From positions 124,001 to 188,000 of the forward strand of contig NZ_JAICBX010000004.1 of the NCBI RefSeq assembly GCF_019492055.1: a stretch of DNA of 64,000 nucleotides, given 5' to 3'. The notes beneath the pieces were generated by a model. It saw only the letters and a program-made list of their open reading frames with translations. It did no database searches and was not told the DNA's origin. The position numbers and the translations under genes are program-made. Every line of letters starts with the position of its first letter. Position 1 is the stretch's first letter. This document shows, one piece after another, positions 22,353-34,371 of the stretch. This stretch comes from Flavimaribacter sediminis. Lineage in GTDB: Bacteria > Pseudomonadota > Alphaproteobacteria > Rhizobiales > Rhizobiaceae.

Positions 22353-24122
22353 ATGCCTGTATTGCAATCCGGTTTCGAGCGTCTATTGCGAGCAGTTTTC
22401 GGTTGGTCGGACCTGCCGGGCGGGAAGGACCACGAGCGGAATTCCCGCCGGCGTCTGAACCTGTGCCTCCTGTGCGTGATTCTGGCGAGCCTGCCGGTCC
22501 TGCCAATAGCGCTGCTGATGCTGCCTCTTGGCGAAATCATCGCGGCCGGTCTGATGGCGACGGCGGCCGGCGCCGCTCTCATCCTTGGCTTTGTGCTGCA
22601 GACGGGCAGGACCGTTGCCGGTGGAATGGCGGCCCTTTTGTGGTGCGGCGGCGCCGTCGCCGTGCTCGCCGCGCTGACAGGAGGCGCGTTTTCTCCGTTT
22701 CTTTTCTGGGCCCTTGCGTTGCCTCTGGCAGCAATGGATGTGCGGCCCGCGCGTTCGACTGCGACGGCGTCCGTGCTCGCCATGAGCGCAACGATCATCG
22801 CCGCGGCAAGTCTGCATCTGCTTGCGCCCCGGACCGGACCCTACGGCCCCGGCAATGGTTATGTTCTCGTTTTCGCTCTTGCGGTTCTTGCCTTCTACGT
22901 AGCGTTGCGCGCGCTCGGTCTCGGGAGCGCCGGCGCTGTCGCGACGAAAGCCGATGCGGGCGACGAGCAGCATGCCGAGCCGCGAAAGATCGTAAACAGA
23001 CGTCTGCCCGGACTGGCGGGCGTTCATGACGCTGCGGGGCATTTCCTCGATACGCGCGGGGCAGATCTGGACGGCGTCGAAAAGGCAGTTGGCGTGCTGA
23101 AGGGAAGCCGCTTCATCGATCATATTCATGTCTCTGACCGGATCGCTTTCCTGCAGGCGGTCGACCGCCTACGCGTCGCCGATGGAACGGCGTCAGTCGC
23201 CGTGCGGCTTCGAAAAGCGGACGCGTCGCACGAACTCATGCGCGTGATGATCGAACTGTCCGCCCGGCGCGATGCGACCGGCGTGATGACGGGCTTCGAG
23301 AGCCATACGAGACTGGAGCAGGCGCCGTTTGAAGCTGAAGGCCTGGAGGACGCCCGGATCCGGATTATGGCGAGCCTCGCGGACGAACTGAAGACGCCGC
23401 TGAACGCAGTGCTTGGCGACGTGCGGCGCGATGCAAGCGATGCCGATTACGCCAGGCGTGTCGCGCAATCGGGAGAGCGTCTGCAGACCGTGCTCGACGA
23501 CATGCAGGACGCAGTCCGTCTTCACCGCGGCGACTATGCAGCCGAATGCGGCCTCGTCGACATGCGCGAGGTGGTCGGCGCATGCGAGGCGATGGTGCAA
23601 GCGGCAGCGCAGGACAAGCAAATTGTTTTGACCGCACGGGTTGCGCGCGGTCACAAGGGACTGACCGCTTCGAAGCGCGCGATGGAGCAGATCGTAATGA
23701 ACCTCCTGTCGAACGCGCTCAAATACACGCCGCCTGGCGGCGCGGTCACGCTGGATGTCGAGAGCCGGGAAGACCGGACCGTTTTCAGGGTCAGCGACAC
23801 CGGCGACGGCATACCGGATACGGATTTGCCGATGGTCGGTAATCCTTTCTTTCAGGTTCGGCGCCAGAATCATCCCCGGAACGAGGGAATCGGCCTCGGC
23901 CTGTACCTGGTGAAGGGCCTGGCGTTAGCCCATGACGGGCGTTTCAGCGTCGAAAGCGACGCGGCGCAAGGCACGACCGTCACTATCGATCTGCCGAACG
24001 CCGGTCCCTTGACCGCACGGGACGGGGTCCGACATGGTGGTTGGCCGGACCTGCCGCCGGATTCGGCAGGCAAAGAGGAAAAATCAGGGGAGATGCGTTA
24101 TGGCCACGCGAAATCGGCCTGA
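22353..24122 (+). CDS. Membrane histidine-kinase homologue lacking the phospho-accepting His
   Basis: The 589-residue protein has about six membrane helices (about 36-195), a PAS-like segment (about 215-325), a dimerisation helix pair, and a full HATPase domain: NLLSNALKYT (N box), DTGDGIPD (G1) and NEGIGLGLYLVKG (G2). The H box reads ADELKTPLN where kinases have SHELRTPLN, so residue 344 is Asp (codon GAC at 23382-23384) in place of His. ATP binding looks intact. This suggests a kinase-like regulator, as for DivL of Caulobacter, where Tyr replaces His. The frame overlaps the start of the next gene. Confidence 0.85.
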   Translation: MPVLQSGFERLLRAVFGWSDLPGGKDHERNSRRRLNLCLLCVILASLPVLPIALLMLPLGEIIAAGLMATAAGAALILGFVLQTGRTVAGGMAALLWCGGAVAVLAALTGGAFSPFLFWALALPLAAMDVRPARSTATASVLAMSATIIAAASLHLLAPRTGPYGPGNGYVLVFALAVLAFYVALRALGLGSAGAVATKADAGDEQHAEPRKIVNRRLPGLAGVHDAAGHFLDTRGADLDGVEKAVGVLKGSRFIDHIHVSDRIAFLQAVDRLRVADGTASVAVRLRKADASHELMRVMIELSARRDATGVMTGFESHTRLEQAPFEAEGLEDARIRIMASLADELKTPLNAVLGDVRRDASDADYARRVAQSGERLQTVLDDMQDAVRLHRGDYAAECGLVDMREVVGACEAMVQAAAQDKQIVLTARVARGHKGLTASKRAMEQIVMNLLSNALKYTPPGGAVTLDVESREDRTVFRVSDTGDGIPDTDLPMVGNPFFQVRRQNHPRNEGIGLGLYLVKGLALAHDGRFSVESDAAQGTTVTIDLPNAGPLTARDGVRHGGWPDLPPDSAGKEEKSGEMRYGHAKSA

Positions 24123-24966
24123 TAAACGAATGAGCGAAGCCGGTTTCATCAGACGGATGGCCGGATCGACCGGAAAGACAATTACCCGGCATCCGTCGCT
24201 GGCGGCGGGAACCGTTGCGTTTGCGGTCGCGTTTGGCTTCGTGACCGTCAATGCGACCCAGTTCCAGCCGGGCGAGCATCCCGCGCCGTTTTTCGACACG
24301 CGCAAGCCGCCGGTTCAGAAACTGGTCGCGAACAGCGACGATATTCCCGTTCCCGTCCGCAAGGTTGCAACCTATCGCATCGAACAGCAGGACCCGGTGC
24401 GCACCGCAAGCATTCCGACGCCGCGTCCGCAACTCGAAAATCCGATTTCCGAGATGCAGAAGACGCTCGGTCGTCTCGGTCTCTATGAGGGCGAACCCGA
24501 CGGCATTCTAGGGCCGCAAACCAGGGACGCCATCATGGCCTACCAGAAACAGGCGAGCCTGGACGCTACCGGCAAGGTGTCCGACGAATTGCTGGTGCAT
24601 GCGCGCATACGCAGCCTGACTTCTGTCGCTACGCCGCGTCCGAAGCCGGCGCAAACCGCGACGCCGGCGGCCAAGCCTCGCGCGACGACGATTGAGGAGA
24701 CCATCGAGGCGACGAGCGAGAAAACTGGCCAGGTTGGCCGCGCGACGCTGGATCCAGCCCCCATTCCCGCCGCGTCTCCCGATCTGGTCAAGAATATCCA
24801 GACCGGCCTCAGCAAACTCGCCTACGCCGATATCGAGATCGACGGCGTCGCCGGCCAGGAGACGACGAAAGCGATCCGCGATTTCCAGAAACATTACAAC
24901 CTTCCGGTTACCGGCGCTCCGGACGAAATCGTCCTTATGAAGCTCAAGGAAATCGGGGCGCTCTAA
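24100..24966 (+). CDS. Membrane-anchored peptidoglycan-binding protein with two PG_binding_1 repeats
   Basis: From the ATG at 24100 (AGGGGAG upstream) the protein has 288 residues. A single membrane helix (about 33-53) is followed by a Pro/Ala/Thr-rich linker and two copies of the peptidoglycan-binding fold, each with a GxxxGPQTRDAI or GVAGQETTKAI turn and a final YQKQ/FQKH helix. It would be anchored in the inner membrane and bind cell-wall material. It overlaps the end of the kinase-like gene and shares a base with the DUF1491 start, so the three form a tight operon. Confidence 0.85.
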   Translation: MATRNRPDKRMSEAGFIRRMAGSTGKTITRHPSLAAGTVAFAVAFGFVTVNATQFQPGEHPAPFFDTRKPPVQKLVANSDDIPVPVRKVATYRIEQQDPVRTASIPTPRPQLENPISEMQKTLGRLGLYEGEPDGILGPQTRDAIMAYQKQASLDATGKVSDELLVHARIRSLTSVATPRPKPAQTATPAAKPRATTIEETIEATSEKTGQVGRATLDPAPIPAASPDLVKNIQTGLSKLAYADIEIDGVAGQETTKAIRDFQKHYNLPVTGAPDEIVLMKLKEIGAL

Positions 24967-25307
24967 TGCGTCTGACAACCGCAGTGTGGACCAGCGCGCT
25001 TGTCCGGCGGCTGTTCGGCGACGGCGATTACGCCGTGATCGAGCGACGTGGCGCAGCCGAGGCGGGGGCGGTGTTCATTCGCGTTCGCCATCGGGACGGC
25101 ACGGCGACGCTGCTTGCGCCGGCGCCGCAGGCGATTTTCGACGAGAAAAAGCCGCAGGATCGCGTGTTCGAGCGGCGCCTGTCCGCTGTCGCCGACGAAG
25201 ATGTCGACGCATTGCTTGAACGCGAAGCCCGGTTCGATCCCGATCTCTGGATCGTGGAACTGGAGACCGAGCGGCCGGAAAACTATCTGGATATCATGCC
25301 CGACTGA
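24966..25307 (+). CDS. DUF1491 family protein
   Basis: The 113-residue protein matches a small alphaproteobacterial family (DUF1491): MRLTTAVWTSALVRRLF at the start, an RGAAEAGAVFIRV segment and a conserved RFDPDLWIVELE near the end. No signal peptide or catalytic motif is visible. It is co-transcribed with the peptidoglycan-binding gene (TAATG overlap), and its 3' end overlaps the convergent DUF2336 gene by 14 bases. Function is unknown. Confidence 0.85.
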   Translation: MRLTTAVWTSALVRRLFGDGDYAVIERRGAAEAGAVFIRVRHRDGTATLLAPAPQAIFDEKKPQDRVFERRLSAVADEDVDALLEREARFDPDLWIVELETERPENYLDIMPD

Positions 25308-26277
25308 AGGACTTGTCCGCTGCCGGCGCGGCTCCGCTCACCGGCGCCGCATGGTGGCGATCGGCCGTTGGCAAGGGGCGATCGCCCGTCTCCATGACCT
25401 GGCGGGTGTGGCGTGTGCGGTTGTCCCTTAGCGGCGGATTGGCGTTCCGCCAGGCGGTGACCTTCCGGCGGCTGATTTCAGGGTCGCATTCCGCGAGGAG
25501 GAGCGCAGCGTGGCTTTCGTCGCCCTCGACAGTCTGCAGATGCCAAAAGACCGCTTCAAGCGTCGCAATGATCTGAGCGTCGCCCAGTCCAAGCGCCTGC
25601 AGGGTCATGGCGAGCTGACGCCCGGAGCCGTCCATCAGGATGCGTTCTGCCAGCGCCGCCGTTGACTGCAGCCGATCAGCGAGCGCGTTCGAAAAACGCG
25701 TGCGATCGCCCAGCGCCGCGGCTTCGACGAGAGCATCGACGGCGACCGGCGCTGCGGTCGGTTCGGGCAGGGCGAGTTCGCTTGCCCGCAACGGTCGGCT
25801 GACCAGGGCCTTGAGTTCCGTGCGGACCCGCTCTTCGGTGGCCGACGGCGCGGCCTCCTGCCTGAAGCGGCTGCGCAAGGCGTCCTCGACGGGGGCGGAC
25901 AGGAAGGACCGGCGGGCGATCGCCCTGACCTTGGAAAGCTCCAGCGTGGCGGCGAGCTCGACGAGCACGTCGTCCTGAAGCGACAGGCCGAAGGCGAGAA
26001 ACGGGGCGGAGATTTCGAGGGGAGCGCGAACGATGGTGATCGCGACGTCGTGCGGCACGTCTGCAAGGCGGCTGAGAGCCGCCGAGGCAGTGCGTCGGGC
26101 TTCATCGGACGCGAATTCGAACAGCGCCACGAAAAGCTTCGAAAATTGCGCCTTCTCGCGCTCCGCCGGTCGCTGGACGGCTTCGTAACCAGCCACGGCG
26201 GCAAGCAGGGCAGAGTCCTTCTTGCCCGATACGCCGGCTCTCTCAAGGTCGCGAAAACGATCCAACACAACACCCAA
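25294..26277 (-). CDS. DUF2336 domain protein
   Basis: The 327-residue protein is mostly helical and alanine/leucine-rich, with the DUF2336 pattern: DRFRDLERAG near the start, LADVPHDVAITIV, and repeated short helices that resemble HEAT-like repeats. It has no signal peptide or membrane helix. Members occur in alphaproteobacteria and have been suggested to act in regulation, but no biochemical role is established. The C-terminus is basic and disordered-looking (NRTRHTRQVME). Confidence 0.8.
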   Translation of the reverse strand: MGVVLDRFRDLERAGVSGKKDSALLAAVAGYEAVQRPAEREKAQFSKLFVALFEFASDEARRTASAALSRLADVPHDVAITIVRAPLEISAPFLAFGLSLQDDVLVELAATLELSKVRAIARRSFLSAPVEDALRSRFRQEAAPSATEERVRTELKALVSRPLRASELALPEPTAAPVAVDALVEAAALGDRTRFSNALADRLQSTAALAERILMDGSGRQLAMTLQALGLGDAQIIATLEAVFWHLQTVEGDESHAALLLAECDPEISRRKVTAWRNANPPLRDNRTRHTRQVMETGDRPLPTADRHHAAPVSGAAPAADKSFSRA

Positions 26278-32022: not shown

Positions 32023-32277
32023 ATGAGACATTACAGACGGGTGATTTTTGCGATTGCGGCGATGCTCGCCGCTTCCGCCCTTACAGGACAGGCTCTTGCA
32101 CAGAACCGCGCCGATTGTTCGCGCGCGGCCTCGCGCGTGGTCGCCCAGACCGGCGGGCAGTTGCTGTCGGTGCAGACGGCCAAGAACGGCAACCAGGTGG
32201 TCTGCCGGGTAACGGTGCTTGCAAGCGATCAGAGCGGCAAACGCCGCACCAAGAAGACCATAACAGTCAGGCCCTGA
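32023..32277 (+). CDS. feuN: Small periplasmic protein, probable FeuN (modulator of FeuQ)
   Basis: The 84-residue protein has a signal peptide ending at QALA, leaving a basic mature part of about 58 residues with two cysteines (ADCSRA and VVCRV). It directly precedes a FeuP/FeuQ-type two-component pair. In Sinorhizobium meliloti the small periplasmic protein FeuN is encoded at this position and restrains the sensor FeuQ. The assignment here rests on position, size, export signal and domain order; I could not align it to FeuN. The response-regulator gene begins 35 bases after its stop. Confidence 0.72.
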   Translation: MRHYRRVIFAIAAMLAASALTGQALAQNRADCSRAASRVVAQTGGQLLSVQTAKNGNQVVCRVTVLASDQSGKRRTKKTITVRP

Positions 32278-32312
32278 CGGGGCATGACGGTCGTTTCAAC
32301 GAAAGAGAAATC

Positions 32313-32987
32313 ATGCGGATACTTGTAGTAGAGGATGACAGGGATCTGAACCGGCAGCTCTGCGAGGCCCTGGAAGAGGCGGGTTACGTCGTCGACAAGG
32401 CCTTTGACGGCGAGGAGGGGCATTTTCTTGGCGACACCGAGCCCTATGACGCCGTGATTCTCGATATCGGCCTGCCGGAAAAGGATGGCATCACTGTTCT
32501 GGAGGAGTGGCGCGAGAACGACCGGACCATGCCGGTGCTGATGCTGACGGCGCGCGACCGCTGGAGCGACAAGGTCGCCGGCATCGACGCCGGCGCCGAC
32601 GATTACGTCGCCAAGCCCTTCCACGTGGAAGAGGTGCTGGCGCGACTGAGAGCGCTGATACGCCGCGCCGCCGGCCTTGCGTCGTCGGAGATCGCCTGCG
32701 GTCCGCTGCGTCTCGACACGCGCGGCGCCAAGGTGACCGTCGACGGAAGGGCGCTGAAACTGACCTCCCACGAATTCCGCTTGCTCGCCTATCTGCTGCA
32801 CCATGTCGGAAAGGTGGTGTCGCGCACGGAACTGGTGGAACATCTCTACGACCAGGATTTTGACCGGGATTCCAACACCATCGAGGTGTTCGTCGGGCGT
32901 CTGCGCAAGAAGATCGGCATCGACATGATCGAGACGATCCGCGGACTCGGCTACCGGATCCAGGCGCCCGCCGATGGCGGACAATAA
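32313..32987 (+). CDS. feuP: OmpR/PhoP-type response regulator FeuP
   Basis: The 224-residue protein has a receiver domain with the acidic pocket EDD at 7-9, phospho-acceptor D51 (AVILDIGLP) and the conserved Lys in VAKPFH, then a winged-helix DNA-binding domain (LTSHEFRLLAYLL to IRGLGYRIQ). PhoP-like receivers with LMLTARDRWSDKVAGIDAGADDY are typical of FeuP. In rhizobia FeuPQ controls, among others, the cyclic glucan exporter gene ndvA. The ATG at 32313 gives the normal family start; the frame upstream overlaps feuN. It overlaps feuQ by 14 bases. Confidence 0.9.
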   Translation: MRILVVEDDRDLNRQLCEALEEAGYVVDKAFDGEEGHFLGDTEPYDAVILDIGLPEKDGITVLEEWRENDRTMPVLMLTARDRWSDKVAGIDAGADDYVAKPFHVEEVLARLRALIRRAAGLASSEIACGPLRLDTRGAKVTVDGRALKLTSHEFRLLAYLLHHVGKVVSRTELVEHLYDQDFDRDSNTIEVFVGRLRKKIGIDMIETIRGLGYRIQAPADGGQ

Positions 32988-34371
32988 CGCCAAGGCGCAG
33001 TCGCTCACCGCCCGAGTGCTGACGATCGCGACCGTCTGGGCCGTGATCGCCCTGGTGGTGATCGCCGTGCTGATATCGACGCTCTATCGCAACAACGCAG
33101 AACGCGCCTTTCGCGAAGTCCTGCTTGCGCGCCTTTACAATCTCATCAATTCGGTCTCGGTTGGCGAGGACGGACAACTCGGCGGCGAGGTGCAGCTGGG
33201 CGATCTCGGGTTTTCGCAACCCGACAGCGGCCTCTACTGGATCGCTGATATCGTCGACGGCGACGACACGGACCGCCTTACGTCTCCATCCATGGGCACG
33301 CTGCAGATCGACGTGCCTTCCGCGGGCGAAATCCCGTTCAACGCGCGATACGAACGATTCTACCCGACGATTGACAGCAACGGCCATGAAATCGTCGTGG
33401 CCGAAACCGAGATCGTGCTGGAAGGCGGCACGATCGCACGATTCAGGGTAACGGGAAGCCAGCATGCGGTGGATGGCGACGTCGCCGCGTTTTCGCATCG
33501 TCTCTATCTGTATCTCGGGCTGTTCGGTGTGCTCAGCGTCTTCGTCAACGGTTTCGCTATCCTGTATGGACTACGCCCGCTCGACGCCGTCAAGCGCGCG
33601 CTGGAGGACATCCGAACGGGCAAGACAGAGACGCTGACCGGCCATTTTCCCAGGGAAATCGTTCCGCTGGCGGCGGAGGTCAACGCGCTTATCGACAACA
33701 ACAAGCGGATCGTCGAGCGGGCGCGCATGCAGGTCGGCAATCTGGCGCATTCCCTCAAAACACCGATCGCCGTGCTGCTCAACGAAACCCGCGGGATGAA
33801 GCCGGAACAGGCGACGCTGGTCAGCGAACAGGCGCGGGCGATGCAGCAGCAGGTCCAGCACTATCTCGACCGGGCGCGCATCGCCGCGCAGCAGAACTCA
33901 TTGCTCGTACGAACTGACACCGCCGAGGTTCTGGAGCGGCTGACCCGGGTCATGCGCCGGCTTAATCCCGATACCGAGTTCGATCTCGCGCTGCCGGAGG
34001 GCGCGCCGCAGCTCGCCATGGAACAGCACGATGTCGAAGAGATTCTCGGCAATCTGCTGGAAAACGCCGCAAAGTGGGCTAACGGCAAGGTTTCGATTAC
34101 AGCAGAAGCGCCCGAGAAGATCAGGAGCGGCTCTGGTCAGAGGCCGCTGATGGATATACTCATCGACGACGACGGCCCCGGCATGCCGGAAGACCAACTC
34201 GAAGAGGCGCTGAAACGCGGCAAGCGACTGGACGAGAGCAAGCCCGGAACGGGGCTCGGCCTTTCGATCGTCAGCGAGATCGCCGGCGAATACAAGGGCG
34301 CGTTCAAGCTGGAGCGCAGCGCGCTTGGCGGATTGCGCGCCCGCCTGTCGCTTCCGGTTGCGGTTCGGTGA
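32974..34371 (+). CDS. feuQ: Sensor histidine kinase FeuQ (PhoQ-like)
   Basis: The 465-residue sensor has two membrane helices (about 15-37 and 175-197) around a periplasmic domain, then HAMP, HisKA and HATPase domains. The H box is NLAHSLKTPIAVL with H259 intact, as in PhoQ/FeuQ kinases. The N box ENAAKWANG and G boxes DDDGPGMP and GTGLGLSIV are present. The periplasmic loop is the place where FeuN would act. The gene overlaps feuP, so the two proteins are made together. Confidence 0.9.
   Translation: MADNNAKAQSLTARVLTIATVWAVIALVVIAVLISTLYRNNAERAFREVLLARLYNLINSVSVGEDGQLGGEVQLGDLGFSQPDSGLYWIADIVDGDDTDRLTSPSMGTLQIDVPSAGEIPFNARYERFYPTIDSNGHEIVVAETEIVLEGGTIARFRVTGSQHAVDGDVAAFSHRLYLYLGLFGVLSVFVNGFAILYGLRPLDAVKRALEDIRTGKTETLTGHFPREIVPLAAEVNALIDNNKRIVERARMQVGNLAHSLKTPIAVLLNETRGMKPEQATLVSEQARAMQQQVQHYLDRARIAAQQNSLLVRTDTAEVLERLTRVMRRLNPDTEFDLALPEGAPQLAMEQHDVEEILGNLLENAAKWANGKVSITAEAPEKIRSGSGQRPLMDILIDDDGPGMPEDQLEEALKRGKRLDESKPGTGLGLSIVSEIAGEYKGAFKLERSALGGLRARLSLPVAVR

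Follow-up and report, generated by a model that had tools for sequence, protein, structure and literature searches.

A divJ orthologue without the phospho-accepting histidine in Flavimaribacter sediminis

The window analysed here, a stretch of 64,000 nucleotides from Flavimaribacter sediminis, carries a gene for a kinase-like membrane protein whose H box reads ADELKTPLN, with an Asp at the position of the phospho-accepting His. This observation leads to the question which kinase this is by descent, and what a kinase could still do without the residue on which it is normally phosphorylated.

The gene, its product and its neighbours

The reading frame (Table 1) encodes a protein of 589 aa that carries MASLADELKTPLNAVLG. 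The original prediction, which was made from the DNA alone, had described a kinase-like membrane protein with Asp at the acceptor position and with seemingly intact N and G boxes, and all of this was borne out: the protein is of the DivJ/PleC/DivL kind, the translated reading frame has the Asp at codon 344, and in the alignment the key residues of the N, G1, F and G2 boxes are all present (N450, N454, D482, G484, G486, F499, G512, G514, and G516). When the protein was searched against Pfam, HATPase_c was matched at residues 442-549 with 91 bits and HisKA at residues 335-391 with 27.8 bits, which is barely above the cut-off of 26.9; the PAS-like region gave no PAS match in this search. Between the PAS-like region and the DHp domain the linker has about 11 residues fewer than that of the orthologues with which it was aligned. 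An AlphaFold2 model of this protein plus its counterpart from the sister species reached a pLDDT of 41.5 and was set aside.

Table 1. Features of the divJ locus, in positions of the window
Feature	Positions	Strand	Basis or remark
divJ orthologue without phospho-accepting His (pseudokinase-like)	22353..24122	+	ORF, Pfam, alignment, tree
Membrane region at the N terminus with about six hydrophobic helices (residues 1-190)	22353..22922	+	hydropathy, alignment
PAS-like region, about residues 191-322	22923..23318	+	alignment
Degenerate HisKA/DHp domain, hairpin about 10 residues shorter	23355..23525	+	Pfam, alignment
GAC codon of Asp344, in place of the phospho-acceptor; sister species GAA (Glu), remaining orthologues His	23382..23384	+	
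HATPase_c (CA) domain, ATP-binding boxes kept	23676..23999	+	Pfam, alignment
Membrane-anchored peptidoglycan-binding protein, two PG_binding_1 stretches	24100..24966	+	Pfam; likely start 24100, overlaps the end of divJ
DUF1491 protein	24966..25307	+	start overlaps the stop of the peptidoglycan-binding gene (TAATG)

The next two genes had been predicted to encode a membrane-anchored peptidoglycan-binding protein and a DUF1491 protein, and the Pfam matches, together with the one TM helix predicted in the former, agree with this. The longest ORF of the peptidoglycan-binding gene begins at 24034, upstream of its likely start. It is likely that the three genes form one operon because their reading frames overlap.

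Descent of the gene and loss of the histidine

DivJ is a kinase with a part in the timing and manner of cell division in these bacteria, and it has been described as the kinase of DivK in the alphaproteobacteria. Judged by gene order, by a tree and by its best full-length NCBIfam match, the window gene is a vertically inherited orthologue of divJ. The tree was built on the DHp-CA regions and included the PleC, PdhS2, CbrA/PdhS1 and DivL-like proteins of the same genome; in it 18 syntenic kinase rows form one clade (90/97) apart from all of these, and the proteins of the window and of the sister species are nested in this syntenic DivJ clade, which has an inner group of 9 supported at 99/97. 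The order divJ - peptidoglycan-binding gene - DUF1491 gene, by which DivJ descent was also recognised, is present in most of the relatives whose loci were read and is wide in the order. The NCBIfam match is to DivJ, NF050805, with 139.5 bits, which does not reach the cut-off of 1000 bits of this Caulobacter DivJ equivalog model; NF050805 is also the best match of the three His-intact orthologues that were scanned, and at 222-232 bits these are under the cut-off as well.

Identity as PleC, PdhS1 or PdhS2 is ruled out by the tree and by synteny. DivL of Caulobacter had been proposed as a precedent for such a protein, and as a precedent it holds, but the gene itself is not divL, since the same genome has a separate DivL-like gene (contig C6, around 1143863; loci L006 and L183, 1142000-1145200) with Tyr at the acceptor position (SYELRSPLTNIIGFTDLL, SYELRSPL), the H box of which is identical in the sister species (L189). 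Like the DivJ proteins of Caulobacter crescentus, A. tumefaciens (Atu0921) and S. meliloti, the window protein has an N-terminal TM region, a PAS-like region, and HisKA and HATPase_c domains; the orthology by tree and gene order holds among the sampled relatives, and the locus name Atu0921 is taken from the literature (PMC3577659). It differs from DivJ elsewhere in that it is without the phospho-accepting His, has a shortened DHp hairpin and is altered at DivK-docking positions. Thus, on these comparisons, it is DivJ by descent and yet not a DivJ-type DivK kinase by the defining residue, although the N, G1, F and G2 boxes of such a kinase are present. The link to the cell cycle that had been suggested is upheld in that a divJ orthologue belongs to a cell-cycle pathway and here adjoins a peptidoglycan-binding gene.

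When the acceptor position was compared across relatives, His was found in 135/135 of the aligned syntenic orthologues outside the genus, and again in each of the 29 loci sampled across the order, 23 of which are from genomes beyond the 135 set. The two genus members that have the gene carry Asp (window) and Glu, encoded by GAA (sister genome G001); the orthologue of the latter is 80% identical and its locus matches CP051237.1, a Pararhizobium MAG. In the third genus genome, G002, which is 79% complete, neither a divJ orthologue nor a DUF1491 match was found, so that the operon has either been lost there or lies in a part that the assembly lacks. Going by this distribution, the loss of the His is a genus-level event. 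The original prediction had noted that a single base separates the Asp codon from a His codon and that orthologues with His could point to an error. Both premises are right, as CAC and GAC do differ by one base and the other orthologues do have His, but an error is ruled out: two independently sequenced genomes are both without His, and the sister genome has GAA and shares further changes in the DHp domain. A single base is also too narrow a description, as the whole DHp domain has been remodelled, including its DivK-docking residues.

As a separate observation, a strong full-length match of the DivJ type (E <= 1e-130) was missing in 67 of 150 genomes of the order, many lineages of which may therefore lack DivJ or have a very diverged one.

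Remodelling of the DHp domain and selection on the gene

The extent of the remodelling was judged at 29 near-invariant DHp positions, each of which is shared by at least 93% of the other orthologues. The window protein is changed at 16 of these and the sister protein at 15; 14 are changed in both, and at 11 of the 29 the two share the same new residue. None of the other orthologues has more than 5 changes, and their median is 0. Of 41 near-invariant positions in the CA domain 9 are changed, a number that one other orthologue reaches, and given these changes ATP binding by the window protein would not be assured.

What is lost and what is kept in the DHp domain bears directly on function. In both genus species R+3 is changed to K and F+12 to D, positions that are R and F in 135/135 of the others and that correspond to R553 and Y562 at the DivK docking site of DivL, where mutation weakens DivK~P binding 8-15-fold (PMC4211667). 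The hydrophobic positions L+44 and L+51 are now Gln. Both species have retained E+1 and the Thr that is linked to phosphatase activity, T+4. The last two residues are in favour of the main mechanistic rival to the explanation that we prefer, namely that without its His this DivJ would no longer phosphorylate DivK and PleD and would still dephosphorylate both, so that its role would be reversed and PleC-like. It is the main rival because, besides the retention of T+4, the H271A form of A. tumefaciens PdhS2, a member of the same DivJ/PleC family, complements the deletion and the T275A form does not (PMC7003649); the His can therefore be dispensable in this family, although natural PdhS2 keeps it. 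A DivK phosphatase, however, would be expected to retain its docking surface, and here both species have changes at R+3, at F+12 and in the hairpin region, the parts that DivL uses to dock DivK, as well as at L+44 and L+51. Because the DivK-docking residues are lost, we consider a phosphatase-only DivJ quite unlikely, and less likely than a pseudokinase.

The 11 shared new residues could also be read as a new surface under constraint, and the acceptor position is acidic in both species. This would fit a rewired signalling protein in which the rebuilt DHp domain recognises a new partner, such as CckA, another regulator or a kinase with which it forms a heterodimer, and in which Asp or Glu serves as a phosphate mimic or as an acceptor. 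The form is known from two species only, however, in which the shared states may simply have been inherited, Asp and Glu exchange easily, and the partner in this proposal is hypothetical; we regard it as improbable.

A comparison of the two sister species gave dN/dS values of 0.27 for the whole gene, 0.19 for the CA domain and 0.25 for the DHp domain, which suggests that divJ is under purifying selection in this genus. In the DHp-CA tree the stem that leads to the window pair amounts to 2.5 changes per site and the tips to 0.10-0.16. The divergence of the neighbouring peptidoglycan-binding and DUF1491 proteins from their relatives is no greater than that of the relatives among themselves, whereas DivJ of the window is more diverged (0.31 identity versus 0.41 among relatives). 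The unaccelerated neighbours, the long stem and the short tips together suggest a burst of change that was confined to divJ and that predates the split of the two species, and constraint on the gene seems to have been back since then. Conservation between the sisters is slightly lower in the DHp domain than in the CA domain, an unusual pattern but not a unique one, since 14/96 comparable pairs show it too; a claim of strong ongoing relaxation of the DHp domain was toned down for this reason, and the main change is placed on the stem branch.

These rates also bear on whether the gene is simply decaying, with DivJ redundant to CbrA/PdhS1, constraint relaxed and the gene on its way to being lost. 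The very long stem, the many near-invariant DHp positions lost, the lower conservation of DHp than of CA between the sisters and the genus genome without the operon would all be consistent with decay. What makes it unlikely is that the 589-aa frame is intact in both species, that dN/dS is low, above all in the CA domain, that the tips are short after the long stem and that the operon is intact; the genome without the operon is, besides, the incomplete one.

A non-catalytic DivJ in its pathway and operon

The genome carries DivK followed by PleD, and the H boxes are intact in the PleC, CbrA/PdhS1-type and PdhS2-type kinases of both genus species; the PdhS2-type gene of the window genome is intact (loci L002 and L186). 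PleC, PdhS2 and DivL were named by their size, their H-box sequence and what the literature describes, and the CbrA/PdhS1 type by a strong match to NF041593. DivK has two kinases in S. meliloti, DivJ and CbrA, either of which can be deleted but not both (PMC11500502). This offers a simple way in which the genus could survive without DivJ kinase activity.

The explanation that we favour, with somewhat better than even confidence, is that DivJ has become a non-catalytic pseudokinase in this genus and that phosphorylation of DivK is probably left to CbrA/PdhS1, to PleC or to both. The His has been replaced by Asp or Glu and the DHp domain rebuilt, whereas the membrane part, the CA domain, the reading frame and the operon have been kept. 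Such a protein would not autophosphorylate on the usual residue and would now dock DivK poorly. It would persist as a non-catalytic membrane protein for the sake of its membrane, PAS-like and CA parts, perhaps as a nucleotide-bound scaffold or sensor that acts with the peptidoglycan-binding protein of the operon, and the intact CbrA/PdhS1-type kinase and/or PleC would take over the phosphorylation of DivK. What speaks against this explanation is that the derived form is seen in two species only, and that loss of the DivJ kinase would need compensation, since deletion of divJ in A. tumefaciens (Atu0921) succeeded only when the cells had another copy, and the gene there appears to be essential (PMC3577659).

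A change from kinase to pseudokinase is already known in this pathway from DivL. Like the Tyr550 pseudokinase DivL of Caulobacter, the window protein is histidine kinase-like, belongs to the same pathway and has a residue other than His at the acceptor position; DivL, however, has Tyr and keeps its DivK~P docking surface (PMC4211667), whereas here the residue is Asp in the window and Glu in the sister and, judged by the residues alone, the docking surface has not been retained. By this analogy the window DivJ would work most like DivL as a pseudokinase of the pathway without being DivL. A more specific version, which we hold to be doubtful, is that DivJ independently became a second DivL-like pseudokinase of the CtrA pathway, an envelope or polarity scaffold with its peptidoglycan-binding partner, in which the acidic residue keeps the DHp domain in a phosphate-mimicking state while CbrA/PdhS1 phosphorylates DivK. 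In the literature searched, which leaves out most subscription journals, a non-catalytic DivJ was not found and DivL turned up as the pseudokinase of the pathway. If DivJ is indeed a pseudokinase here, it would join DivL as a second and recent example of a kinase in this pathway that has apparently turned pseudokinase, and a genus that keeps divJ without its active site would offer a natural separation of the catalytic and non-catalytic roles.

The finding also draws attention to the conserved divJ - peptidoglycan-binding - DUF1491 operon, for which the literature searched offered neither a study nor a paper linking divJ with DUF1491. The wide conservation of the gene order suggests a lasting partnership between DivJ and the peptidoglycan-binding protein, in which the latter possibly has an SpmX-like role. 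In Hyphomonas polar DivJ depends on SpmX (PMC7200025), and SpmX carries a muramidase domain (PMC4460556), so that a peptidoglycan-linked partner of DivJ has a precedent. In the SpmX-DivJ pairing of Caulobacter and Hyphomonas a membrane protein with a peptidoglycan-related domain is the partner of DivJ, and here a peptidoglycan-binding gene lies directly downstream of divJ; the difference is that SpmX has a muramidase domain whereas the operon protein has PG_binding_1 domains, and an SpmX-like part for it is offered as a suggestion from this analogy. A search for the muramidase domain (PF00959, SpmX-like) gave one match in the window genome and none in that of the sister species. Beyond the operon, a gene for a DUF2336 protein (window 25294-26277, - strand) is convergent to the DUF1491 gene, with 3' ends that overlap by 14 bases, and about 7 kb downstream of DUF1491 there is a response regulator and sensor kinase pair (window 32115-34371) in which the H box, NLAHSLKTP, is normal.
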